Of a DNA stretch of 64,000 nucleotides, positions 13,745-33,230 are shown piece by piece (the stretch's first letter is position 1; each line of letters opens with the position of its first letter). The notes beneath the pieces are model-generated. The model saw only the letters and a program-made list of their open reading frames with translations, did no database searches and was not told the origin of the DNA. Source of the stretch: Bacteroidota bacterium. GTDB lineage: Bacteria > Bacteroidota > Bacteroidia > B-17B0 > Aurantibacillaceae. Made by a program: the position numbers and the translations under genes. Location: NCBI GenBank assembly GCA_947450025.1, contig CANFTW010000006.1, positions 124,001 through 188,000 of the forward strand, in the 5' to 3' direction.

Positions 13745-14200
13745 TTATTTGTATCCTACCATAAACACGGCACAGCCGCTATAGGAACCTTCTTCGGAGG
13801 GAGGGATGACATAATCAATGTATACTTGTCGTGATTTAGAGACTTCAAATTCAAATTCTTTAGCAGCACCTTTATCTTTCGAAGAAAACAATAGTTTTCT
13901 GTTTTTAGACTCTTTGCTTTTATTATAAATCTGAACTTCTACTTGTTTTGGTAAAGCTTCTAGTTCAAAAATGATGCGGTATTTTTCACCAATAAATAAA
14001 GGGACTTCTATCTCTTTTATAGTTTCTTTGTTTTTATACAGAATACGAGTTAGTTCAGAACTATCATATTTATAAGGTTCAAGCGTAGCTTTTGCTTTAT
14101 CTTTTAGTTCTTTTGCGTTACATAATACATCTCCTCTTTGAAACGCCATTAATGACACTACAAGAGGGATGCTAAATAAGGGAGTAATAATTTTTTTCAT
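13745..14200 (-). CDS. Exported protein of unknown function
   Basis: A 151-residue protein. I start it at the ATG at 14200, which gives a signal peptide MKKIITPLFSIPLVVSLMAFQ; the frame stays open upstream to 14218 and would overlap the preceding gene. The mature part contains a helix-like KELKDKAKATLEPYKYDSS stretch and then beta-rich segments, with two cysteines (near residues 27 and 144) that could pair. No known domain is recognised. It is the last gene of the operon that begins with the CtpA protease, ten bases after the lipoprotein gene, so it probably works in the envelope with them. Confidence 0.7.
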   Translation of the reverse strand: MKKIITPLFSIPLVVSLMAFQRGDVLCNAKELKDKAKATLEPYKYDSSELTRILYKNKETIKEIEVPLFIGEKYRIIFELEALPKQVEVQIYNKSKESKNRKLLFSSKDKGAAKEFEFEVSKSRQVYIDYVIPPSEEGSYSGCAVFMVGYK

Positions 14201-14210
14201 AATGTAAAAT

Positions 14211-15095
14211 TTAGTCAACTATGCTAGCTCTTAACGATTTTATGGATTCAGCAATTGGTTTAAGTTCAGAATCAGTGACTGGCATTACTGAAAAATCCAT
14301 TTCTTCATCTTTTTCCATAGCCGATTTTACTGAAGCGATGTTGTTAAATTCAGAGTTTATTTTTTCAATAGCAGTAATTAGCGCTGGGATTTCAGCATCT
14401 TTTTCTTCGTATACTTTTAAAGCCTTAATAATGGTGCGAGATAAAATCAGTTGTTCCATGAGACTGATTAACACTTTTTTATTTTTATTTTTAGAATACA
14501 CCTCAAAAGCAATGTACATGCTTTCTGTCCATGCACCTGCAAAAGCAATCACAGGAATATAGTTTTGCTTGTTTTGCTCAAACATTACATCTGTTTTTAA
14601 TTGAATGTTAGACACAATTTTTATAACAGAGTCTTCACTTGCAATATTTTTATCAAAGCGTTGTGTTAAGTTTTCGCTCTCAAAAGCTTGGTTTAAGCCT
14701 AAGAATGAACCCATATCTTTACAAGCTTTTAAGTATTCTTTTGATTCTTGATATTTTTTATTGAATAAACAATACGCTAAGTCAGAACTGTAAATTCCAA
14801 AATTAGCGCCTCTTTTAAAATTACTGGTATTGTAATGACTTGCTTTAGCTTTGTTATTTAATAAATTGGGAATAAACATAGCTCCCGATTTTTTAAATAC
14901 ATAGGCAATTTGTAGCGCCGATGGCAAAGTGTAGGACACTTCACGATCATTGGAGCTCAAGTCACTATTAGTGGTTACTGAAGAATCAACACTCTCAATA
15001 GATTCTTGATTTTTTTGATCTTCATTGTTTCCCCCGCACGAAATAAGTGCGAAGAATAAGATACAACATGGGATAGCTAAAAATTTGTAACTCAT
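14211..15095 (-). CDS. Lipoprotein of unknown function
   Basis: A 294-residue protein with a lipoprotein signal: the lipobox ends at Cys20 (ALISCGG). An acidic, Ser/Asn-rich linker follows (about 22-52). The remainder is predicted from composition to be mostly helical, with a YNTSNFKRGANFGIYSSD region and a C-terminal ESIKSLRASIVD. I recall similar lipoproteins in Bacteroidota but no function. It lies 34 bases after the CtpA protease gene and 10 bases before the small exported protein gene, a three-gene envelope operon. Confidence 0.72.
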   Translation of the reverse strand: MSYKFLAIPCCILFFALISCGGNNEDQKNQESIESVDSSVTTNSDLSSNDREVSYTLPSALQIAYVFKKSGAMFIPNLLNNKAKASHYNTSNFKRGANFGIYSSDLAYCLFNKKYQESKEYLKACKDMGSFLGLNQAFESENLTQRFDKNIASEDSVIKIVSNIQLKTDVMFEQNKQNYIPVIAFAGAWTESMYIAFEVYSKNKNKKVLISLMEQLILSRTIIKALKVYEEKDAEIPALITAIEKINSEFNNIASVKSAMEKDEEMDFSVMPVTDSELKPIAESIKSLRASIVD

Positions 15096-15129: not shown

Positions 15130-16758
15130 TTATTTAGATAACAACTCCACCGCTTTTAAAATACATTTATCATTTTGGTTAATGATTGGGTAGTAAGCAT
15201 CTTTATCAAACATATCTCTACCAATAAATGCTTTTAAATAAGGATTAAGTGCTTCATTTATTTTTGTTTTAGCTATATTGTCTATCATTAATTTTTGTTT
15301 AGAACAGTAATCGTAAAATTCGGTTAATATATCAGGGCTAATTTCAAATTTTTCAATATAATTCTTAGAGTTGCCGAAGGCTTTGAGTTGGGTTCTGTTT
15401 TTATCGGCATATTCAAAAGCAAAGGCGTTAATCGCGCCAGAATAAAATATTTTATTTAAATAGGAATTCGTTTTAGCGGTATCCAAAGGCACAAAGACAT
15501 CTGGCATAATTCCGCCGCCACCATAAACTATTTTTCCTTCGGGTGTTCTGTACTGTTTAGTTTTGTCTAATTTCACGCTATCTTGGTGCAATAGTTCGCC
15601 AGATGCATAACGATCATATTCTTCATTATAATATTGATTCTTATCGTCGGAGTATGGTTTTTGAATACATCGTCCGGTTGGTGTATAATAGCGCGCAATC
15701 GTTAATCGAATGGCTGAACCGTCAGGTAATTGTAATTGGTCTTGAACTAAGCCTTTCCCAAAACTTCTTCTTCCTATGATGGTTCCTCTATCGTTATCTT
15801 GAATGGCTCCAGCTACAATTTCACTAGCACTTGCAGAACCTTCATCAATTAAAACAACTAAAGGATTATTTTCAAAACTTCCATGCTCGGTAGCTTTATA
15901 CATTTTTTTTGGATTTGCTCGACCTTGAGTATATACTATCTGTAAGCCATTGGTTAAAAATTCATCTGATATATCCACTGCTGCATTTAAATAGCCGCCT
16001 GGGTTACCTCTTAAATCCAAGATTAATTTTTTCATCCCTAATTGACTTAATTGATTAAAGGCTTTTAGGTATTCTTGATAGGTAGTTGCTGCAAATTTAC
16101 TAATCTTAATATATCCGACATTCGGAGTAACCATATAAGAAGCATCTAGGCTATAAAGCGGAATAGCATCTCGGGTAATTTTAAAATCTAATGGTTTTGA
16201 AAAGCCATGGCGCATAATGGTGATATTAACTTTTGTACCACTTTTTCCTCTTAATTGATCAAATACTTCTTTGTTGGTGATTTTAACTCCTGCTACTTTT
16301 TTACTTTCTACTTTAATAATTTTGTCACCTGCTCTAATTCCAACTTTTTCAGATGGTCCACCTTCTATTGGCACAATCACTCTAATGGTATCTTTTATAA
16401 TGTTAAATTCCACACCAATGCCATCAAAATTCCCTTCTAGGGGCTCATTAACGGTTTCAAATTCACTTGCAGGAATATAACTCGAATGTGGGTCTAAACT
16501 TTGTAACATTGATGTAACTGTTTTTTCTACTAAGTCCTTTTTGTTAATCGTATCAACATATTGGTATTCGATATAATCTATCAAACTGTTAATTTTATCA
16601 ATACTTGCCTCATGATAGCCTAAGTTTTTTTCTGCCCCTGAATCGATGCGTTTATTTAAAAAATAACCCAACCAAATACCAAGGACTAGTACAAAAGACA
16701 ATATGATTGGTAAAAAAACGTTATACTTTTTTGGAGGTGTAGATGGGTCAATGTCCAT
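15130..16758 (-). CDS. C-terminal processing peptidase, family S41 (CtpA)
   Basis: A 542-residue membrane-anchored periplasmic serine protease that trims or degrades envelope proteins from their C-termini. Residues 14-35 form the membrane anchor. An S41 N-terminal region is followed by a PDZ domain at about 108-190 (GIGVEF, then IEGGPSEKVGIRAGD). The catalytic core has the strand LDLRGNPGG, the nucleophile serine within GSASAS (307-312) and the general base Lys335 in SFGKG. A C-terminal region of about 200 residues follows. A TACCTTTG box lies 23 bases upstream, and the two downstream genes are probably cotranscribed. Confidence 0.94.
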   Translation of the reverse strand: MDIDPSTPPKKYNVFLPIILSFVLVLGIWLGYFLNKRIDSGAEKNLGYHEASIDKINSLIDYIEYQYVDTINKKDLVEKTVTSMLQSLDPHSSYIPASEFETVNEPLEGNFDGIGVEFNIIKDTIRVIVPIEGGPSEKVGIRAGDKIIKVESKKVAGVKITNKEVFDQLRGKSGTKVNITIMRHGFSKPLDFKITRDAIPLYSLDASYMVTPNVGYIKISKFAATTYQEYLKAFNQLSQLGMKKLILDLRGNPGGYLNAAVDISDEFLTNGLQIVYTQGRANPKKMYKATEHGSFENNPLVVLIDEGSASASEIVAGAIQDNDRGTIIGRRSFGKGLVQDQLQLPDGSAIRLTIARYYTPTGRCIQKPYSDDKNQYYNEEYDRYASGELLHQDSVKLDKTKQYRTPEGKIVYGGGGIMPDVFVPLDTAKTNSYLNKIFYSGAINAFAFEYADKNRTQLKAFGNSKNYIEKFEISPDILTEFYDYCSKQKLMIDNIAKTKINEALNPYLKAFIGRDMFDKDAYYPIINQNDKCILKAVELLSK

Positions 16759-16814: not shown

Positions 16815-17264
16815 ATGTTTAGAAAAATTAGCATATTCATACTTGTGGCTTTCATCAGCCTTTTTTCTGCATGTAAAAAGAAAAGTAAAACTGTTCAGGA
16901 CAACATCCCGTATCAAACAGTAAATCTGACACTTTATCCAAATGACCCTTTAAATTTTAAAATTCAGGTGGTTGGCGGTTGGATGTACGTGAATGGAGGT
17001 ATTAATGGCATTATTGTGTATCGAAAAACAGCCACAAATTCACCAACTGATTTTGTGGCGATAGAGCGCACTTCAACGTCGTTACCAGATGATCCTTATG
17101 CCAAAGTGAAGGTTCAGTCGGATAATTTTACCTTAAAAGACACCATTAGTGGTTCAAAATGGCAAATTATTGATGGGGCTTTGATTTCAGGGCCTGCCAC
17201 TCAAAGTTTACGACAATATAGTGCGGTTTTTGATGGAGTAAATACTTTAACCATTCGGAATTAA
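16815..17264 (+). CDS. Lipoprotein with a Rieske-like fold lacking all cluster ligands
   Basis: A 149-residue lipoprotein with Cys20 in the lipobox LFSAC. The mature part follows a Bacteroidota Rieske-like pattern: GGWMYVNGGINGIIVYRK, then AIERTSTS, then SGSKWQIIDGALISGPATQSLRQY and a final LTIRN strand. In Rieske proteins the same places hold Cys-x-His and Cys-x2-His, and the GSRFxLxDGxxxxGPAxxPLxxY frame is the second cluster loop. Here AIERTSTS and TISGSKW have no Cys or His, and no cysteine remains in the mature chain. So the iron-sulfur cluster cannot form. The family assignment rests on pattern memory; the function is unknown. Confidence 0.6.
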   Translation: MFRKISIFILVAFISLFSACKKKSKTVQDNIPYQTVNLTLYPNDPLNFKIQVVGGWMYVNGGINGIIVYRKTATNSPTDFVAIERTSTSLPDDPYAKVKVQSDNFTLKDTISGSKWQIIDGALISGPATQSLRQYSAVFDGVNTLTIRN

Positions 17265-17320: not shown

Positions 17321-17575
17321 TTATGCGTTCTCTGGTTTTCCTTTTGCTTGCGAAACAACAATGGCACGTTCATAGTGTTCAGTTCCGTTTAACGAATCAA
17401 TGGCTTTTTGACCATCTTCATCATTTGCCATTTCAACAAAGCCAAAGCCGCGGCTTCGTTTTGTTTCTTTATCTTTAATAATTCTTACCGAGGTAACCTC
17501 GCCGTACTGAGAAAAAAGTTCACTAAGTGCTTGTTCTCTTACCTTAAAGCTGATGTTGCTTACAAAAATATTCAT
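17321..17575 (-). CDS. RNA-binding protein with a single RRM
   Basis: An 84-residue protein that is nearly all one RNA recognition motif. RNP2 is IFVSNI (3-8) and RNP1 is RGFGFVEM (42-49) with the aromatic residues needed for RNA stacking. Such small glycine-poor RRM proteins occur in cyanobacteria and Bacteroidota and bind single-stranded RNA, acting post-transcriptionally. The gene stands alone, with an AT-rich leader of over 100 bases that could be a regulatory 5' UTR, and its own terminator. The target RNAs are unknown. Confidence 0.93.
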   Translation of the reverse strand: MNIFVSNISFKVREQALSELFSQYGEVTSVRIIKDKETKRSRGFGFVEMANDEDGQKAIDSLNGTEHYERAIVVSQAKGKPENA

Positions 17576-22360: not shown

Positions 22361-22406
22361 GTGAAATAAATTAAACAGACACAATATGTATTTCAAATTT
22401 ACAAGA

Positions 22407-25400
22407 ATGAAAAAAAGCAATTGGCTCTTAGCCTTGACTTTTTTCGCTGTTGTCTTTACTGGCAACTTGATGGCGCAGGTAGATGTGACTTCCTCGGGAG
22501 GAACGGCTACGGCATCGTACACCACATTGAAAGCGTCTTTTGATGCGATTAATGCAGGTACGCACACTGGTACAATTGCTATCAGTATTTCTGCAAGTAC
22601 AACCGAAACAGCTTCAGCAGTTTTAAATGCGAACGGTTCAGGTAGTGCTAGTTTTGCAAACGTTTCAATCAGTCCTAGTGGAGGTGCTGCAAGAACCATT
22701 ACAGGTTCAGTTGTTGGCCCATTAGTTGATTTTAATGGAGCAAGTAATGTAACCATCAATGGTTTAAATACCGGAGGTAACGCATTAACTATTTCGAATA
22801 CAGCTACTGGAGCTTCGAGTACAATTCGTTATTATAATGATGCGTCTAACAACACGGTTACTAATTGTACATTATTAGGTTCATCAACTACTTTAGGAGT
22901 TGTGTATTTTGGAACAAGTACTGGTACATTAGGTAACTTGTCTAATACAGTGTCTAATAACAATATTGCTGCAGCTGGTGCAAATAGCCCTTTAACAGGC
23001 ATTTATTCTGTTGGTCAAAGTGCTTTAATTGTAAACAGTGCAACAGTTTCTTCAAATAATATTTACGATTATTTTAATGCTGCCGCTTCTACAAGTGGTA
23101 TTTTTATTGGTGGTAATAATAATGCTTGGACGATTACTGATAATAAATTATACCAATCTGCAACAAGAACGTATACAACTGCTAATACACATTATGGTAT
23201 TAACATTACATCTGGTGCAGGCTATGTAATTACAGGAAATACCATTGGTTATGCTAATAACAGTGGAACAGGTACAACAAATGTTGTTGGTAACTCAGTT
23301 GCTTTAGCTGGTTTCCCAGGAGCATATGCAACTACTGGTACAGCAAATGCGACACGTTATGTCGGTATTAATGCGGCTTTTACGGCGGCTGGCTCAACTT
23401 CTTCTATCCAAAATAATAAAGTGGCTAACATTGCAATTTATACATCAAGTGGTGCAACTACCACTAATGGTATTTTAGCTGGTATTGTGGTAACAAGTGG
23501 TAATGTTAACATTGGTACAGTGCAAGGGAATACGATTGGTGCTACAACTGGTAATGGTTCATTATACTCTGCTTCTTCAACAGCTGGAGGTTTAATTTCC
23601 GGTATTTATGTTACTTCTTCTAATACCGTTACTATTAAAAACAATACAGTAGGTGCTATTGATGCAACTGGTAATACTTTAACGACTTTATCAGGAAGTA
23701 TTAGAGGGATTGATGTAACAGGAATAGGTAACTTCTTAATTACGAATAATACCATTGGTAATTCTACAGCAAATAACTTAAGAATGGGTAACCTTTATAC
23801 TGGGGTATCTTTATCTAATGCAGGAACCACTTTTACAACGTCTACAGGTGCTAGTGTATTTGTTGGGATAAACAGTTCAGTAAGTGGAACTATTACTATT
23901 GGTACAGTTGCTGAACCTAATACGATTAGAAATGTATTTGTGAATTCAAATAGTGCTAGTGCTTTATTTAAAGGTATTGCTTCTAGTTCAGGTGTTTCAA
24001 ATATTTCTGGTAATAATATTAGTAATATTAATTCAAATAGTGCTTCTGTTTCTACAGGCAGTGGGGTTTTATCTGGATTAGGTATTTATTTAAGTGGTGG
24101 TACTAATCCAGTGATTAGTTCAAATACCATTTCTAATTTAGCTTTATTAAACACTGGAACAGGTGGTTTTACTTTAGGAGGTATTAGTTATACATTCCCA
24201 ACGACCTCTATTACGATTACTAAAAATAAAATTTACGGATTAACATCTGCAGGTACAGGAACTACTGTTACTGCTCCTCCTACTGTATCAGGTATTTTTG
24301 TGCGTGATGGTGGCGGCGCAACTGCTAATATTAGTAATAACATGATCTCTTTAGGGAATGGTCAAGCAACTAATACAACCTTTATGGGGCTTTGGTTGCA
24401 ATATTCATTCTCTACTGTAACAACCATGAATATTTTACATAATTCCATCAATATTGAGGGAACTGTAACAGCAGGGGCTTTACCAACTTTTGGTTTATAC
24501 AGAGGAGATTTCTCTGCTACTGCGGTAACTACTTATGTGATGAATGTAAAAAATAACGTTTTCAGTAATACACGTAGTGCTGGTACAGGTACTCACGTGT
24601 GTATTGCTAATAACTATGGTGCAACGGCTAGTGCAACTAACTGGGGTACTAATGCATCCGATTACAACTTTTATAATACCGTAACAGGTAATCCTAACAT
24701 TGGTTACTGGACATCTGCTCAAACTTTTGCAGGTTGGAAAACAGCCTCTTTAAGTGATGCAAACTCTCCAACAGCCTCTACTAGCGCTAACCCTTTCCCA
24801 TTATTTAATGCTTCTGCTACTGGTGATTTACATGTTAATCCGTCTGTGGCAACAGTGATTGAATCCGGTGGGGTGAGTGGATTAATAACTTCTGATGATA
24901 TTGACGGTAATATTCGTCAAGGATTTGCAGGCTATACTGGTGCAGGTTCAGCACCAGATTTAGGAGCTGATGAATTTGCAGGGATTAGCCCAGCGCCAGT
25001 AATTAATGGTGTTGCTATTTCTCCATTAGGTAGTTCATGTTCAGCTATCTCTCGTTTAATTTCTGCAACTGTAACTCCAGGTGCAGCGTCTTTAACATCG
25101 GTAACTTTAAATTATTCATTTAATGGAGTGGCTCAAACACCAATCACAATGGCTGGTGGTAACTTAGCGGCTGGTTCAACATGGACAGCGACTATTCCAG
25201 CAGCTGTTCCTACAAATGCTAGTGTGGCTTGGTATGTTACTACTACTGATGGAACATATAGTAAAGCGTCTAATACATCATCTTATTCTGATGCAACTGC
25301 CCTTAATTATGTGGCAACAGCTTCAGTAACTCCAAACCCTGTTTGTGAGGGCGGTGTTGTAACTCTACAATATAATTTACTAGGAACTAGTACAGCTACT

Positions 25401-28400
25401 TATTGTGCGATAGCAGCGGCTACTTCAGCATTATCTTATTTTGATGCCTTTACCACAACCGGTGCGGTTTCAAATATTAATAATACAGCTACTGGATTTT
25501 CAGTGGGTGGTTATGCAAACTACACTAACTTAACTGTTTCTCAAAAATTAGGACAAGCAGTTAGCTTTAATACCTTACTACAAGGTACAACAGTTGGTGT
25601 GGCTATTTGGGTAGATTGGAATCAAGATGGAATATTTGATCCTTCAGAAAGAATGTACAATACGACAGGATATGTTTCAACAGCAGCAGGTACTTTTACT
25701 GTTCCTGCAACAGCGAAGTTAGGAACAACTCGTATGAGAATTTTAATGGATTATAATGCGTCTAATCCAGCAGCACCTTGTGGTCCATTTGCTTCTGGTG
25801 GAAGAGGTGAAGCGGAAGATTATACCTTCTTAGTCTTGCCTTCAACAGTTTCTTATGCTTGGACAGATGGTGTCACAACATTCACTGCAGCAACTAATTC
25901 ATCAACTTTAACTGTAAATACTTCTGCAACTTATACTGCAACAGCATATTTAGATGGATGTCCTTTAGCAACAACAGTTCAAGTAAATGTAACACCATTA
26001 CCTTCGTTACCAATTGTAACGAATATTGGTCAATGTGGTTTGGGAGTTTCTCCTTCAAATGTAGTGGGTGGTGCATCTTATAATTGGTATGCAACGCCAA
26101 CTTCAACAACGGTATTACAAAGTGGTGCAAGTTCGACCTATACAACTGCGGTTGGTGCAACCACTACTTGGTATGTGACCTCAGTAAATGGTGCTTGCGA
26201 AAGTTCACCAAGAGTAGCGGTTACTGCTTCAGTGACTTTACCAGATGCAGTTAATGCAGCATCTAGTGCTTCTTTATTATGTGTGGGTGGTTCAAATGCT
26301 ATTACCTTAACAGCGAATCAAGTTGGAACAAATAACGCTTATAGCTTTACTTGGACAGCAACTCCAGCTGTAGGTAGTGGTATGGCAACTTCAGTAACAG
26401 GTCAATCAGTAGTGATTACTCCAACAACGGTTGGTACTTATACTTATAACGTCATAGCATCTGATGCAGTATGTACGACTTTATCAAGTGTAGTCGTTAC
26501 CTTAAATGCTTTACCTCAACTGTTAACTTCAGCAACTCCTTCAGTAGTATGTTCTGGTGCTAGCGTGAATTTAAATGCTACTAACGCTGTTATTGCTCCA
26601 GGAACTGCCACAAGTGGTAATGGAACTTCATTGACTTCAGCTTATGGTTATCCAACAGCTTTTGGTAATTACTGGTACCAAACATGGCAACAGTATTTAT
26701 TTACAGCGGCAGAATTAAATGCCATGGGTATTACAGCTGGTAACATTACATCTTTATCATTTAGTATTGCAGCTCTTCCAATTCCAAATCAAGCGATTAC
26801 AGATTACAATATAAAAATCGGATCTACAGGAAATACAGCTTTATCAGCTTTTGTAACAGCTGGTTTAACTAATGTATTTGGACCTGCTACAAAAACAGCG
26901 GTATTAGGTTTAAATACCATTACATTATCAACGCCATATTATTGGAACGGAACATCGAATTTGGTAATTGATTTAAGACAAACCGAATTTTATGGCAGTG
27001 GTAACGCAACGACGTATTATACGACAACTCCAAATAACTCGGTATTGTATGCTTATGCAACGACTTCAAATGCTAACTATTGGACATCTAGTCCAGCGCC
27101 TACTGCTTCAACTAGCCGTCCAAATATTATTTTTGGTGCTCAGATTCAAACTCAAGGCGCTGGTAATTTAGTATGGCAATGGAATCCAGGTGCAATTAAC
27201 AGTAACACAGCAACGGTAGTAGTTACTAATACAACTGCCACGGCGGCAACTCAAGTATTTACTGTTACAGGAACTAATACCTTAACTGGATGTTCAAATA
27301 CTGGCACAACAAGTGTGGTAGTTAATGCTATACCCACAACTCCAGTAGCAGCCAACTCTATTCAATGTGGTATAGGTGTTCCTACAGCATCAGTGAGTGG
27401 CGGTACCTTATATAATTGGTATGCAACACCAACTTCTACAACTGTATTGCAAACTGGTTCAGTAGCTAATTTTACCACATCTATTAATTCAACCACTACT
27501 TGGTACGTTGAGTCTGTGAGTCCAGAAGGATGTTCTAGTCCAAGAGCTGCAGTAACAGAAACAGTGAACATTCCTAATTTAGTGACTGCAAGTACAAGTT
27601 CATCATCACTTTGTGTGGGTGGTGCTAACGCGATTACGTTAACAGCTAATCAAACTGGTTCAACAAATAACTACAATTTCACGTGGACAGCAACTCCTTC
27701 AGTAGGAAGTGGTATTACAACTTCTGTTAATGGACGAACAGTATCTATTACTCCAACAACGGTAGGAACATACACTTATAATGTAACTGCTATTGATGGT
27801 ATTTGTACAACTTTATCAAGTGTGGTTGTGAGGTTAAATGATCTTCCTCAAATCATTGCTTCTTCAAACCCATCTGTGGTTTGTTCAGGCTCTAGCGTTA
27901 ATTTAACAGCTACGAATGCTGTTATTGCTCCTGGGCCTGCAGCAGTTGGTACAGGAACAGCGCTTACTTTATCATATAGTTATCCAACAGCTTTTGGTAA
28001 CTACTGGTACCAAACATGGCAACAGTATTTATTTACAGCAGCTGAGTTAAATGCGATGGGTATGACTGCAGGTAACATTACATCTTTATCATTCAGTATT
28101 TCAGCTTTACCAAATCCAAATACTCCAATAACGGATTATAACATTCAAATTGCTCCAACAAGCAACACTGCTTTATCAGCTTTTGTAACAACTGGTTTAA
28201 GTAACGTATTTGGACCTACAACTGTAACAGCAGCAGCTGGTTTAAATACCATTACTTTAGCAACGCCTTACAATTGGGATGGTGTATCTAACTTAGTAAT
28301 TGATTTAAGACAAACAGAATTTTATGGTAATGGAAATGCAACAACGTATTATACCACTACTCCAAATAACTCTGTATTGTATGCTTATGCAACGACTTCA

Positions 28401-31400
28401 AATGCTAACTATTGGACATCTAATCCAATACCAACTACTTCTACTAGTCGTCCAAATATTATTTTTGGTGCGCAAATTCAAACACAAGGAGCTGGTGGTA
28501 TTTCATGGCAATGGAATCCAGGTGCAGTCAATAGTAATACAGCTACTGCTGTAGTTACAAATACAACTGGTACTGCAACTACTCAAGTGTTTACAGTAAC
28601 AGGCACTAGTACAGTGACAGGTTGTGTTAATACTGCTACGACTAGCGTATTAGTAAATGTAGTTCCTAATACAGCCATAGCAACTAACTCTACTCAATGT
28701 GGTTTAGGTGTTCCAACAGCTTTTGTAACAGGTGGCACATCATACAATTGGTATGCAACACCAACGTCTACAACTATTGTTCAAGCAGGTCCTTTTAATC
28801 ATATTACAAGTCCAATTAACACAACCACAACTTGGTATGTGAATACATTTAATGGATTATGTGAAAGTTTAATTAGAACAGCTGTGACTCAAACGGTTGT
28901 TGTGCCAGATGGAGTTACTGCAGTAACAACATCATCAGCAGTATGTCCAGGTACAACCTATACATTATCTTCAGCTAACACTGGTACAACAAATGTGTAT
29001 GCGTATTCTTGGTCAGCATCTCCATCTGTAGGAAGTGGAATTTCTTCTACAACTCCAGGTGCAAACGTAGTTTTAACTCCAAATACGCCAGGAACTTATG
29101 TATATAATGTGACGGCAACAGATGGTTTCTGTACAACCACTAAAACAGTAAGTGTATTAGTAAATGCAGTTCCTGATTTAGTAGCAACAGCAAGTCCTTC
29201 TATTATTTGTTCAGGTACATCGGTGAATTTAAATGTACAAGCAAACAATGCTACTCCAGGTTTGGCAACTGTTGGTTTCCAAGGTGGTTCAACAACTATT
29301 AATGGTTCTCCATACAGACAAGGTGCTGGAACAACATTAGAGCAAAAAGCACAATACTTATTTACAGCAGCTGAGTTAAATGCTTATGGTATTTACCAAG
29401 GTAACATTACAGATATCAGTATTAACGCTTTAACAGCAGGTAGCGGACAAATGGATAACTTCATTATTAAAATGGGCGCAACAACGGCTAGTTCTTTAGG
29501 AACAACCTATAGTTCTGCAGCATCAACTTTAGTATATGGTCCTTATTCATACTCTGTTACTGCAGGTCAAAATACACACACCTTTGATACACCATTCTTC
29601 TGGGATGGTAACTCAAACGTTGTGATTGAAATTTGTCATGATGCTGTGAATCCATTAGGAGTAAGTAGTAATGTTGTTATTGAAACAACATCTAATAAAG
29701 TAATTACTTCTACTATTTTAGGAGCTTGTTCAGCAACTGTTGGGACTGCAACTACTAACCGTCCACAAATTACATTTGGTGCTCAAGTTGGTTCTGATAT
29801 CACAGGTTCTATGAATATTTTATGGAATCCAGGTGCAATCACCACCAATACAGCATTAGTAACGCCATTAAATACAGGTTCTGTTGTCTCTACTCAAGTG
29901 TATACAGTATCGGTTAATAATCCAGCTACGACATGTTCTAGTATTAAAACAGTAGCAGTAGTGATTAATCCAATCCCTACTACACCAGTAGCTGTAAACT
30001 CTGCACAATGTGGTGTGGCTGTTCCAACAGCATCAGTGTCAGGTGGTACAGTTTACAATTGGTATGCAACGCCAACAGCTACAACCGTATTACAAACAGG
30101 TTCAAGTTCTCACTACACAACCGCAATTAATAGTACAACATCTTGGTATGTGACTTCTATGAATACAGCAGGTTGCGAAAGTCCTAGAGCTACTGTAACA
30201 ACTTCAGTAACTGTTCCAGATGCAGTATCAGCATCAGTAGCATCAGCTTCTGTTTGTCCAGGTACTAACGCAACTTTAATTGCAACTCAAACAGGTTCAA
30301 CTAATGTATATGTATTTACTTGGACAGCATCTTCAGCTACAGGAAGTGGTATTTCAACTTCAGTAGTTGGTAGTTCAGTAAACATTACACCAAGTACATC
30401 TGGTAACTATAACTATACGTTAACAGCATCAGATGCTGCAGGTTGTATAGCAATTAGCACCACATCATTAAATGTGTTTGTAACGCCTACATTAACAGCA
30501 ATTTCAGCTGCTCCAACAACATTATGTTCTGGTAATACAGCAACTTTATCAATCTCTGCAATTTCTCCGGGAACTGTAGCAGTAGGTACTGGTGTAACAA
30601 CACAAGGCGGTTCTGGTCTTTCTCCTTATGCTCAATTCTGGGAAGGTCAAAGAACACAGTATTTATTTACAGCGAGTGAATTATCAGCAATGGGCTTAAG
30701 TTCAGGAAATATGTCAGCGATATCATTTAATGTGACATCTGCTCCAGCAACCTTACAGTTTACAAATTACGCTATCAAAATGTACCATACTTCAGCAACT
30801 GATTTAGTAGCATCGTATGCGTCACCTAGTAGCGCGGTAGTAAACGTATTTGGTCCAGTAAACTTAGCGCCTCCTGCAGTTGGTTTAAGTACTCATAACT
30901 TTACTAATGCCTTTACATGGGATGGTGTATCGAATGTAATCATTGACGTATGTTTCGAAAATGACCCATTAAGTACAGCTGTCTTATATACAAGTAATGA
31001 TATTGTTGCTGCAACAACGGTAACTGGTTTCACATCAGTGAGAGGGGATTATCAAGATAACTCTTCTTTATGTAATACAGCGAACGTTGGTATTTCAGCA
31101 ACAAGTACAATTAGACCAAATGTGATTTTCTTAGGAAATACCATGACAGGTTCAAATGTAGTGAACTGGTCTGCAGGGACAACACCAGCAGGAACAGGTT
31201 ATACCATTACATCGACACCACCAGTAACATCGGTTTATACAGCAACGTTAACAGATTCTCATTCTTGTGCAGTTGTATCTAGCCCTGTAACATTAACAGT
31301 TAATGCTACTCCAACAATTACAGCGGTTGCTTCTAGCCCTTCTGTTTGTGCTGGATCAACAGCAACGTTAACAGCTACTGGTGCAACTAACTATACTTGG

Positions 31401-33230
31401 ACTTCGGGTGGAACAACTTCTACAGAAGTTGTGACTCCTTCAACAGCATCTGTTTATACAGTAACTGGTGCTAGTTTAGGTTGTGTAAGTTCAACCACTG
31501 TTGGAGTTGGTTATAATGTTATTCCTACAGTGGCTGTAAATAGTGGTTCTATTTGTTCAGGAAACAACTTTACCATTACTCCAACTGGAGCATCTTCCTA
31601 TTCATATTCTGGTGGTTCAGATGTAGTGTCTCCATTAACAACTACAGATTATACGGTTACAGGTACAACAGCAGGATGTTCATCAACTGCAGTGTCAAGT
31701 GTATCAGTTAGTACAACACCTACTATTAGTTTATTGTCAGGAGGTATTTGCCCAGGTGATTCTTATACAATTACAGCATCAGGAGCAGATACTTATACAT
31801 ACTCTAGTGGTTCAGCTGTGGTTACTCCAGTTGCTACAACATCTTATTCCGTTACTGGTTCAAATTTAGATGGTTGTATCGGTAATACTGCCGTCACAAC
31901 AGTAACTGTGTCTTCTGTATTAATATTTAATGTTAATAGTGGAGCAGTTTGTGCAGGTAATTCATTTACTATGTCACCTGTTGGAGCAGCAACTTATACA
32001 TACTCTAGTGGATCAGCAGTAGTAACACCAAGCGCATCCTCAGTATATACAATTACTGGAGCAAGTGCTTCAGGTTGTTTAGGTACCGCTACAAGTTCTG
32101 TAACAGTTAATGCTTACCCTGTCGTAACTGTAAATAGTGGTGCTATTTGTTCTGGAAACAGCTTTACAATGATACCATCAGGTGCAACAACTTATTCTTA
32201 CTCTAGTGGTTCTGATATTGTTTCTCCAACTGCAACCACTTCATACACTGTAACAGGTGAAACGGCAGGATGTGCAACAGACGCTGTAAGTTCAGTAACT
32301 GTTATTGCTCTTCCAGTTGTAACAGCAGCTTCTTCAAATACATCCATTTGTATTGGTAATTCAGCAACTTTAACTGCAGCGGGTGCAACTAACTATACTT
32401 GGACTTCAGGTGGAACTGCTTCTACGGAAACAGTAACTCCAACAAGTGCTTCAGTTTACACGGTAACTGGTGAATCTAATGGATGTTCTAACATTGCTAC
32501 AGTGGCAGTCAATGTTTCTACAGTGATACCTACAGTAACCGCAGTTTCTTCAAGTTCAGCAGTTTGTGCTGGTTCATCAGCAACTTTAACTGCAGGTGGA
32601 GCTAACGCTTATACTTGGTCAACTGGAGGAAATGCAACCACTGAAGTAGTTACTCCTTCAACACCTTCTTCTTACACTGTGACAGGTGATTTAAATGGAT
32701 GTACTAACACTGCAATTGTTTCGGTTGGTGTTAATCAAGGGCCTACAGTTACAGCATCAGCATCACAATCTACGTTATGTTTAGATGGAAGTAATGGCCC
32801 TTCAATTTTAACAGCATCTACAACAGCTAGTGCTTATACATGGTCAAATGGAGCTAACACGTTAACAACTTCAGTAACACCTACATTAACTACAACATAC
32901 ACAGTAACTGCTACACAGGCTGGTTGTTCAAGTAATGCACTTGTTACAGTAACTGTATTTGATTGTACAGGTATTAAAGAGTTAACAAATGATAACATTA
33001 GCATCTTCCCTAATCCAACAAATGGTATTGTAAACATCTCTATCTCTTATGAGTTAGCTGGTAATACCTCAATCGAAGTTTACGATGCAATTGGTAAATT
33101 AGTGATTAAAGAAAACTTAACGAATAATACAAGTACAATTAACTTATCAAAAGTTGAAGATGGTATGTATGTATTCAAAATTATTAACAACAACCGCGCA
33201 ATTAAAATTGGTAAAGTTGTTAAACAATAA
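22407..33230 (+). CDS. Giant T9SS-secreted modular surface protein
   Basis: One uninterrupted frame of about 3607 residues. I prefer the ATG at 22407 because it begins the signal peptide MKKSNWLLALTFF, ending in MAQ; an ATG at 22386 is also in frame. Order of parts: a repetitive N/S/T-rich parallel beta-helix region (about 22530-24960, ending in the DLGADEF block); an Ig-like region; a GEVED domain (about 25401-25830, ending GEAEDYTF); four tandem modules of about 440 residues from 26031; eight Ig-like repeats of 65-72 residues (31309-32963); and a type A sorting tail (FPNPTNG, then the VYDAIGKLV and DGMYVFKI blocks). The tail predicts export by T9SS and attachment or release at the cell surface. 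It is likely an adhesin or matrix protein; ligand unknown. The gene is monocistronic. Confidence 0.9.
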   Translation: MKKSNWLLALTFFAVVFTGNLMAQVDVTSSGGTATASYTTLKASFDAINAGTHTGTIAISISASTTETASAVLNANGSGSASFANVSISPSGGAARTITGSVVGPLVDFNGASNVTINGLNTGGNALTISNTATGASSTIRYYNDASNNTVTNCTLLGSSTTLGVVYFGTSTGTLGNLSNTVSNNNIAAAGANSPLTGIYSVGQSALIVNSATVSSNNIYDYFNAAASTSGIFIGGNNNAWTITDNKLYQSATRTYTTANTHYGINITSGAGYVITGNTIGYANNSGTGTTNVVGNSVALAGFPGAYATTGTANATRYVGINAAFTAAGSTSSIQNNKVANIAIYTSSGATTTNGILAGIVVTSGNVNIGTVQGNTIGATTGNGSLYSASSTAGGLISGIYVTSSNTVTIKNNTVGAIDATGNTLTTLSGSIRGIDVTGIGNFLITNNTIGNSTANNLRMGNLYTGVSLSNAGTTFTTSTGASVFVGINSSVSGTITIGTVAEPNTIRNVFVNSNSASALFKGIASSSGVSNISGNNISNINSNSASVSTGSGVLSGLGIYLSGGTNPVISSNTISNLALLNTGTGGFTLGGISYTFPTTSITITKNKIYGLTSAGTGTTVTAPPTVSGIFVRDGGGATANISNNMISLGNGQATNTTFMGLWLQYSFSTVTTMNILHNSINIEGTVTAGALPTFGLYRGDFSATAVTTYVMNVKNNVFSNTRSAGTGTHVCIANNYGATASATNWGTNASDYNFYNTVTGNPNIGYWTSAQTFAGWKTASLSDANSPTASTSANPFPLFNASATGDLHVNPSVATVIESGGVSGLITSDDIDGNIRQGFAGYTGAGSAPDLGADEFAGISPAPVINGVAISPLGSSCSAISRLISATVTPGAASLTSVTLNYSFNGVAQTPITMAGGNLAAGSTWTATIPAAVPTNASVAWYVTTTDGTYSKASNTSSYSDATALNYVATASVTPNPVCEGGVVTLQYNLLGTSTATYCAIAAATSALSYFDAFTTTGAVSNINNTATGFSVGGYANYTNLTVSQKLGQAVSFNTLLQGTTVGVAIWVDWNQDGIFDPSERMYNTTGYVSTAAGTFTVPATAKLGTTRMRILMDYNASNPAAPCGPFASGGRGEAEDYTFLVLPSTVSYAWTDGVTTFTAATNSSTLTVNTSATYTATAYLDGCPLATTVQVNVTPLPSLPIVTNIGQCGLGVSPSNVVGGASYNWYATPTSTTVLQSGASSTYTTAVGATTTWYVTSVNGACESSPRVAVTASVTLPDAVNAASSASLLCVGGSNAITLTANQVGTNNAYSFTWTATPAVGSGMATSVTGQSVVITPTTVGTYTYNVIASDAVCTTLSSVVVTLNALPQLLTSATPSVVCSGASVNLNATNAVIAPGTATSGNGTSLTSAYGYPTAFGNYWYQTWQQYLFTAAELNAMGITAGNITSLSFSIAALPIPNQAITDYNIKIGSTGNTALSAFVTAGLTNVFGPATKTAVLGLNTITLSTPYYWNGTSNLVIDLRQTEFYGSGNATTYYTTTPNNSVLYAYATTSNANYWTSSPAPTASTSRPNIIFGAQIQTQGAGNLVWQWNPGAINSNTATVVVTNTTATAATQVFTVTGTNTLTGCSNTGTTSVVVNAIPTTPVAANSIQCGIGVPTASVSGGTLYNWYATPTSTTVLQTGSVANFTTSINSTTTWYVESVSPEGCSSPRAAVTETVNIPNLVTASTSSSSLCVGGANAITLTANQTGSTNNYNFTWTATPSVGSGITTSVNGRTVSITPTTVGTYTYNVTAIDGICTTLSSVVVRLNDLPQIIASSNPSVVCSGSSVNLTATNAVIAPGPAAVGTGTALTLSYSYPTAFGNYWYQTWQQYLFTAAELNAMGMTAGNITSLSFSISALPNPNTPITDYNIQIAPTSNTALSAFVTTGLSNVFGPTTVTAAAGLNTITLATPYNWDGVSNLVIDLRQTEFYGNGNATTYYTTTPNNSVLYAYATTSNANYWTSNPIPTTSTSRPNIIFGAQIQTQGAGGISWQWNPGAVNSNTATAVVTNTTGTATTQVFTVTGTSTVTGCVNTATTSVLVNVVPNTAIATNSTQCGLGVPTAFVTGGTSYNWYATPTSTTIVQAGPFNHITSPINTTTTWYVNTFNGLCESLIRTAVTQTVVVPDGVTAVTTSSAVCPGTTYTLSSANTGTTNVYAYSWSASPSVGSGISSTTPGANVVLTPNTPGTYVYNVTATDGFCTTTKTVSVLVNAVPDLVATASPSIICSGTSVNLNVQANNATPGLATVGFQGGSTTINGSPYRQGAGTTLEQKAQYLFTAAELNAYGIYQGNITDISINALTAGSGQMDNFIIKMGATTASSLGTTYSSAASTLVYGPYSYSVTAGQNTHTFDTPFFWDGNSNVVIEICHDAVNPLGVSSNVVIETTSNKVITSTILGACSATVGTATTNRPQITFGAQVGSDITGSMNILWNPGAITTNTALVTPLNTGSVVSTQVYTVSVNNPATTCSSIKTVAVVINPIPTTPVAVNSAQCGVAVPTASVSGGTVYNWYATPTATTVLQTGSSSHYTTAINSTTSWYVTSMNTAGCESPRATVTTSVTVPDAVSASVASASVCPGTNATLIATQTGSTNVYVFTWTASSATGSGISTSVVGSSVNITPSTSGNYNYTLTASDAAGCIAISTTSLNVFVTPTLTAISAAPTTLCSGNTATLSISAISPGTVAVGTGVTTQGGSGLSPYAQFWEGQRTQYLFTASELSAMGLSSGNMSAISFNVTSAPATLQFTNYAIKMYHTSATDLVASYASPSSAVVNVFGPVNLAPPAVGLSTHNFTNAFTWDGVSNVIIDVCFENDPLSTAVLYTSNDIVAATTVTGFTSVRGDYQDNSSLCNTANVGISATSTIRPNVIFLGNTMTGSNVVNWSAGTTPAGTGYTITSTPPVTSVYTATLTDSHSCAVVSSPVTLTVNATPTITAVASSPSVCAGSTATLTATGATNYTWTSGGTTSTEVVTPSTASVYTVTGASLGCVSSTTVGVGYNVIPTVAVNSGSICSGNNFTITPTGASSYSYSGGSDVVSPLTTTDYTVTGTTAGCSSTAVSSVSVSTTPTISLLSGGICPGDSYTITASGADTYTYSSGSAVVTPVATTSYSVTGSNLDGCIGNTAVTTVTVSSVLIFNVNSGAVCAGNSFTMSPVGAATYTYSSGSAVVTPSASSVYTITGASASGCLGTATSSVTVNAYPVVTVNSGAICSGNSFTMIPSGATTYSYSSGSDIVSPTATTSYTVTGETAGCATDAVSSVTVIALPVVTAASSNTSICIGNSATLTAAGATNYTWTSGGTASTETVTPTSASVYTVTGESNGCSNIATVAVNVSTVIPTVTAVSSSSAVCAGSSATLTAGGANAYTWSTGGNATTEVVTPSTPSSYTVTGDLNGCTNTAIVSVGVNQGPTVTASASQSTLCLDGSNGPSILTASTTASAYTWSNGANTLTTSVTPTLTTTYTVTATQAGCSSNALVTVTVFDCTGIKELTNDNISIFPNPTNGIVNISISYELAGNTSIEVYDAIGKLVIKENLTNNTSTINLSKVEDGMYVFKIINNNRAIKIGKVVKQ
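26031..31300 (+). repeat. Four tandem 444-residue modules within the giant protein
   Basis: The marker CAATGTGG recurs at 26031, 27363, 28695 and 30005. The first two intervals are exactly 1332 bp and the third is 1310. Copies 1 and 2 share long identical runs, for example 49 identical bases at 27042-27090 and 28374-28422. Each module holds two Ig-like domains, a third Ig-like domain opened at its first strand, and a roughly 190-residue insert with YLFTAAELNA and a WDG/WNG-type block. Confidence 0.9.
31309..32963 (+). repeat. Eight short Ig-like repeats within the giant protein
   Basis: Each copy of about 65-72 residues reads roughly as P-T-V, a Cys, a G-N-S-x-T-x-T-x-x-G-A motif, Y-T-W/Y-S-x-G, V-T-P-x, Y-T-V-T-G and a second Cys. 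The two cysteines are phased so that one disulfide per repeat is likely. Confidence 0.88.

Follow-up and report, generated by a model that had tools for sequence, protein, structure and literature searches.

We found that a gene in the window, the 64,000-nucleotide stretch of Bacteroidota DNA analysed here, encodes a member of a conserved Bacteroidota lipoprotein family that is, by fold and by a bridge of intermediate sequences, a descendant of Rieske [2Fe-2S] electron carriers. The loss of the iron–sulfur ligands is older than the window protein, and its own lineage lost two later disulfide-like cysteine pairs. It is reasonably probable that the gene encodes a lipoprotein whose Rieske domain no longer has a cofactor and which goes back to Tat-exported [2Fe-2S] Rieske lipoproteins of Bacteroidota, that disulfides replaced the cluster and were then lost, and that the product acts as a docking module in the envelope. 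Fold, descent, lack of ligands, purifying selection and the concerted change of the cysteine pairs were computed; the identity of the disulfides, the holding of the loops by serines and an Arg–Asp contact, and docking are what we infer.

A conserved lipoprotein family

The gene (16815–17264, + strand, as are all its features below) is an open reading frame of 149 amino acids and the sole match to the family in its own genome. It begins with a lipoprotein signal peptide (16815–16874) that carries the lipobox LFSA/C, Cys20 being encoded at 16872–16874, and that has no twin arginine and is hence taken to be of the Sec type. The mature residues 21–149 (129 amino acids) contain no cysteine, as the preliminary description had claimed, and no histidine. 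A cysteine-free stretch of 129 residues is not rare in itself; the telling point is rather that a protein shown to be a Rieske homologue has no ligand residue at any of the aligned positions.

When 60 genomes were searched, 53 were matched, the window's own included, representing 29 of 33 genera, with one weak match (L057) being a canonical Rieske protein. A family profile matched 250 of the 295 genomes of the class, which is an upper bound because weak matches, some near E 1e-5, may be canonical Rieske proteins; in a sample of the phylum 60 of 118 genomes gave a match, which outside the class was in many cases weak. For the counts below we used 184 family rows, that is, the non-redundant open reading frames at E≤1e-3 in the fetched loci (197 rows minus 13 canonical Rieske proteins), among which the window's own family is over-represented and which come from the matches listed, including all but the 34 weakest of 64 listed places. 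The 13 canonical rows are those that the profile of relatives (A1, below) also found among the PF00355 loci, together with L057. No PF00355 Rieske protein was found in the window's own genome, which is 99.96% complete, compared with one in 40 of the 60 sampled genomes. Genome G042 carries three family copies and one canonical Rieske protein, L160, and at locus L179 two family open reading frames form a near-tandem pair (2953 and 3467, − strand).

The four motifs named in the preliminary description (GGWxYVNGG, GSKW, DGxxxxGPA and LRQY) were all found in the window protein, with GSKW at residues 113–116, but only part of them belongs to a Rieske frame. DGALISGPA (residues 120–128) and LRQY (132–135) make up a retained Rieske C-terminal frame (residues 120–135; 17172–17219), as judged from conservation in the family and the canonical proteins: Gly121 is shared by 180 of the 184 family rows and all 13 canonical ones, and Tyr135 by 183 of the 184 family rows. 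GGWMYVNGG (residues 54–62; 16974–17000), by contrast, is a signature of the family and not a Rieske motif, since all 184 family rows have Gly62 whereas all 13 canonical rows have a gap there. Gly65 (183/184) and Arg85 (178/184) are likewise conserved, and the window protein has the lipobox, Gly62, Gly65, Arg85 and Tyr135.

Predicted fold and sequence bridge to Rieske proteins

The structure of the window protein was predicted with AlphaFold2 from an alignment of the protein and 44 relatives (45 sequences), giving a model with pLDDT 89.3 and pTM 0.76. Foldseek placed the Rieske protein 8hn2 first (E 6.8e-5), ahead of dioxygenase ferredoxins, arsenite oxidase AioB, the bc1 and b6f complexes and NirD (4aiv); judged by title, each of the 50 matches listed is a Rieske protein or a subunit of a complex that contains one, and three reach E≤0.001. 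VIA-align superposed the model on PetC3 (5cxm_A) over 99 residues with Z 11.6 and rmsd 2.6, and by title all 50 VIA matches listed were again Rieske proteins or Rieske-complex subunits. Structure prediction and fold search, which the preliminary description had proposed, returned the Rieske fold, and the predicted Rieske beta domain spans residues 33–149 (16911–17261; AlphaFold2 and VIA). The plain Ig-like sandwich, named there as the opposing outcome, was ruled out by the Foldseek and VIA lists, which are Rieske throughout.

Sequence comparison connected the family to the same proteins. Profile A1, built from 55 relatives collected in the 60-genome search, detected among PDB sequences the Rieske proteins 5cxm (E 2.2e-5, the best match) and 8hn2 (E 1.2e-4). 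Eight of the 55 relatives matched PF00355 at E≤1, and the relative L050 scored above the cut-off of that model (31.5 versus 20.3 bits); five matched PF13806 (Rieske_2) at E≤1, and the window protein did not match it. When A4, the 45-row alignment of the window clade, was compared with nine canonical short Rieske proteins using hhalign, the probability was 97.4% and E 1.6e-11, over a stretch to which the lipobox contributes and in which box II is mostly gapped. BLASTP aligned the window protein with L160 at E 2e-6, and among the 13 canonical rows L160 has the highest A1 profile score (70.8 bits).

Taken singly, the window protein had no Pfam match at E≤10, no NCBIfam model above cut-off and no match to a Rieske PDB sequence, and the A4 clade profile found no Rieske chain among PDB sequences. 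The NCBIfam model for EexN lipoproteins was rejected, being sub-threshold (14.8 bits versus a cut-off of 33) and covering the signal peptide only. The profile search against Rieske families that had been suggested earlier therefore succeeds with the A1 profile and fails with the window protein alone and with A4; since these direct matches are absent, descent rests on the intermediates and the fold. Together, the fold, the A1 profile and the alignment support the preliminary description in its claims of Rieske ancestry and loss of all four ligands.

Empty ligand positions and paired cysteines

The former ligand positions were located by comparing the family profile with solved Rieske proteins and by multiple alignment. 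In the ex-box I loop (residues 85–95; 17067–17099), which starts at Arg85, Cys-1 corresponds to Ser87 and His-1 to Ser89; in the ex-box II loop (residues 109–116; 17139–17162), which ends at Trp116, Cys-2 corresponds to Asp109, the box II disulfide cysteine to Ile111 and His-2 to Ser112. The alignment thus places the former ligand positions in the two loops, AIERTSTS and TISGSKW, to which they had been assigned before.

Across the 184 family rows His-2 was never found, and His-1 was kept in 11, with tyrosine at that position in 122; the Cys-2 position holds cysteine in 37 rows and aspartate in 146. The commonest type, with 59 rows, has four cysteines, namely Cys-1, both cysteines of the classical Rieske disulfide and a cysteine in place of His-2. 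A further 28 rows have these four and Cys-2, making five box cysteines, and 52 rows have none, where 'none' refers to the five box positions: beyond the lipobox, 36 of the 52 contain no cysteine at all, and the other 16 contain one outside those positions. The 44 near relatives used for the AlphaFold alignment have no box cysteine.

We found that these cysteines occur in pairs. Cys-1 and the cysteine at His-2 were both present in 112 rows and both absent in 72, with no discordant row, and the classical disulfide cysteines were both present in 105 and both absent in 72, with seven discordant rows, some of which have the second cysteine shifted by an insertion. For cysteines from different pairs phi was 0.52–0.54. 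The classical pair is gone and the other kept in 17 rows, the reverse holds in another 17, and all of these lack Cys-2; the window protein and 51 other rows have neither pair. Serine occupies both first-pair positions in 61 of the 72 rows missing that pair.

These counts answer the survey of cysteine presence in orthologues that had been proposed earlier: 52 of the 184 family rows, the window protein included, have no box cysteine, and many relatives carry one or two cysteine pairs. All four ligands are gone from what had been described as a redox fold turned into a ligand-free binding protein, but the loss predates the window protein (His-2 in no family row, Cys-2 in 37), and the 'binding' part was an inference for which no ligand or partner was found.

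Five box cysteines are carried by distant members (L210, L223–L226, L228, L230, L233, L234, L237, L240–L242, L245, L247–L249 and similar), in which a CG...CC insertion separates Cys-2 from the CC pair. The odd fifth cysteine in these distant members could belong to a metal site or be a free thiol.

Export route

Most bacterial Rieske proteins are described as being inserted by the Tat system, which carries proteins with their cofactor bound in the cytoplasm (PMC7317946). An RR signal was found in eight of the nine short canonical Rieske proteins, and a simple rule detected a lipobox in all nine. By the same rule 183 of the 184 family rows have a lipobox, Cys20 being invariant across the 55 rows of the A1 alignment, and an RRx-hydrophobic motif occurs in only 2 of 183. 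From this difference, export in the family appears to have shifted from Tat to Sec. TatC is encoded in the window's genome.

Changes of the cysteine pairs and their proposed order

An IQ-TREE tree of 193 rows was calculated with the two box regions excluded, and a FastTree and a mixture-model tree served as comparisons; four long FAD-Rieske-like proteins had been removed from the 13 canonical rows, leaving the nine short ones. The two members of the first pair (Cys-1 and the cysteine at His-2) always changed on the same branch (10/10 changes on the IQ-TREE tree, 12/12 with FastTree and 12/12 on the mixture-model tree). The members of the classical pair changed 14 and 15 times with 13 changes shared (IQ-TREE), 14 and 15 times with 11 shared (FastTree), and 15 and 16 times with 14 shared (mixture model). 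Changes common to both pairs numbered 0, 0 and 1 on the three trees, on which the 52 rows without box cysteine formed one group with support of 93, 99 and 94. The event numbers are rough because deep branches are poorly supported, but the pattern is the same on all three trees; of the independent pairs listed, only one to four per trait lie on starred branches. Loss of the classical pair with retention of the other is seen in ten family codes, including the window's own, f1, and the f1 genera g5, g7, g9 and g10, which keep the new pair, suggest that within f1 loss of the classical pair preceded that of the new one.

We propose that the cluster was lost and that its two loops would then have been held by two disulfides, the classical Rieske one and a new one linking Cys-1 to the cysteine in place of His-2. 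In the window lineage, the classical pair would have been dropped first and the new pair then swapped for Ser87 and Ser112, with a putative Arg85–Asp109 contact perhaps helping to hold the loops. The resulting lipid-tethered rigid domain, most likely serving in binding or assembly, may dock a protein or other envelope partner via its ex-cluster tip, and would no longer carry electrons. The relatives apparently show a cluster being lost stepwise, disulfide bridges standing in for it before vanishing too. We lean towards reading them as an ordered natural series from an Fe–S site to a covalent cross-link to nothing, in which a cysteine ligand recruited a cysteine at the histidine position, export passed from Tat to Sec, several lineages lost the two disulfides independently of each other, and the fold came to serve a cofactor-free role in a widespread Bacteroidota family.

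Two disulfides do not account for the 37 rows with Cys-2, 28 of which hold it as a fifth box cysteine, an odd number for disulfides. These rows speak for a rival reading in which the relatives' cysteines are metal ligands, for zinc or for a reshaped Fe–S centre with Cys/Tyr/Asp, and the window clade lost that metal site; a Rieske protein crystallised in a zinc-containing form without the cluster is on record (PMC10492824). We consider this unlikely, however: a four-ligand site should go whole, whereas the cysteines change as two separate pairs with almost no changes shared between them, the 17 and 17 rows that keep a single pair are all without Cys-2, and the family is exported without the RR motif.

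Selection on the window clade

In the A4 alignment Arg85, Ser87, Asp109 and Trp116 are each present in 45 of 45 rows and Ser112 in 43 of 45. The median dN/dS was 0.068 (range 0.016–0.303) over 11 clade pairs with dS under 1.2, none of which includes the window protein, whose synonymous sites proved saturated in 13 of 14 comparisons with relatives; the remaining comparison gave a dN/dS of 0.068 at a dS of 1.8. Internal stops were absent from every listed match of the 60-genome search. The window clade is thus under purifying selection with Ser87, Asp109 and Ser112 kept, and the low dN/dS together with the near-fixed residues indicates that both the clade protein and its ex-cluster tip are maintained.

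The same near-fixation of Ser87, Asp109 and Ser112 is what one would expect if the window protein still bound a metal or small ligand at the old site through these residues. We regard this as improbable, since a Ser/Ser pair is an ordinary near-isosteric swap for a cysteine pair and occurs as well where the other pair is retained (for example in L031), and since the mature protein offers no histidine or cysteine. A functionless gene in decay is hardly credible: every ligand of the ancestral activity is gone, but the clade dN/dS, on which a pseudogene reading was rejected, the lack of stops in the listed matches and the presence of the family in 29 of 33 genera all speak against decay. Just as implausible is another small beta sandwich that resembles Rieske proteins by chance, as the missing direct matches of the single protein and the A4 profile might suggest, because the Foldseek and VIA matches listed, 50 each, are all Rieske-related and the family supplies a sequence bridge.

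Genomic neighbourhood

The immediate neighbours in the window are a divergent gene for an S41 C-terminal processing protease with a PDZ domain (15130–16758, − strand; PF03572, E 2.4e-54) and a convergent gene for an RRM RNA-binding protein (17321–17575, − strand; PF00076, E 1.5e-23). Neighbours were counted over 182 loci and the window, and the counts are lower bounds, many loci having only 1–1.5 kb of flank. A divergent upstream homologue of the S41 protease was found in at least 58 loci, the window counted, and all the family-coded ones among these are f1; other common neighbours were adenosylhomocysteinase (at least 39), a probable TonB-dependent receptor, identified by eye alone (at least 36), and GldD (at least 24). 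No fixed operon partner was found among these loci; the commonest neighbours vary by lineage and lie mostly on the opposite strand. For the docking function that we favour, no supporting partner, operon or ligand was found in the genome context.

Other arrangements were seen in passing. Among the near relatives, L103 (whose gldD matches TIGR03512) and 23 further loci have gldD in tail-to-tail orientation with the gene, and an ssb-like gene comes next in 20 loci (by eye). In some distant families (L049, L056, L222, L224, L225, L227 and L231–L233) the gene directly follows a 3-hydroxybutyryl-CoA dehydrogenase look-alike, also recognised by eye. In the window, two adjacent proteins (14211–15095 and 13745–14218, − strand) begin with what by eye resembles a signal peptide, the first also having a lipobox-like cysteine; neither has a Pfam match at E≤0.001. 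A repetitive 3614-residue open reading frame (22386–33230) has a C-terminus that resembles a type 9 secretion sorting domain, both features being judged by eye.

Comparison with known systems

Ligand loss in Rieske folds is already known from scattered cases. Here, one related set preserves canonical stages and stages with five, four, two and no box cysteines, so that one can read and test in which order the cofactor was lost, disulfides were gained and the export route was switched, and a likely fold and history are given to a common envelope lipoprotein for which, in the case of the window protein, no Pfam or NCBIfam model scores above cut-off. No report of this family, or of one in which a disulfide takes over from the cluster and is itself lost later, was found in a literature search that covered few subscription journals.

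NirD, the small subunit of assimilatory nitrite reductase (PF13806), is the partner of an enzyme and not a lipoprotein. It resembles the window protein in having a Rieske fold, the M. tuberculosis structure 4aiv being in the Foldseek list, and in the substituted ligands of some members, such as that of B. bataviensis, in which one cysteine and one histidine are reported to be substituted (PMC3475470). The window protein differs from it in being a lipoprotein without a PF13806 match; the genes next to its own encode an S41 protease and an RRM protein. The arsenite oxidase subunit AioB of NT-26 is described as a working Rieske protein without the classical disulfide, with Phe and Gly in its place, that still has the 2Fe-2S cluster and the motif binding it (PMC3758308). 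AioB and the window protein thus both lack the classical disulfide, and AioB is a precedent for losing that pair, but AioB keeps the cluster, which the window protein is not predicted to do.

The short Tat-exported Rieske lipoproteins L160 and L057 of related bacteria share with the window protein the lipobox CKK, the VNFTIDITQPAYSAL...GGYVY start and the Rieske core, but unlike it they keep CTHAGC, CPCHG and an RR signal. Compared with the Rieske [2Fe-2S] proteins of the cytochrome b6f/bc1 type (PF00355; PetC3, 5cxm), the window protein shares the predicted fold over about 99 residues, the C-terminal frame G.v..GPA..L..Y and the positions of the loops, and it lacks the Cys/His ligands (replaced by Ser87, Ser89, Asp109 and Ser112), the classical disulfide, the Tat motif and a Pfam match. 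By its defining features, it is not a Rieske iron–sulfur protein but a Rieske-fold descendant.
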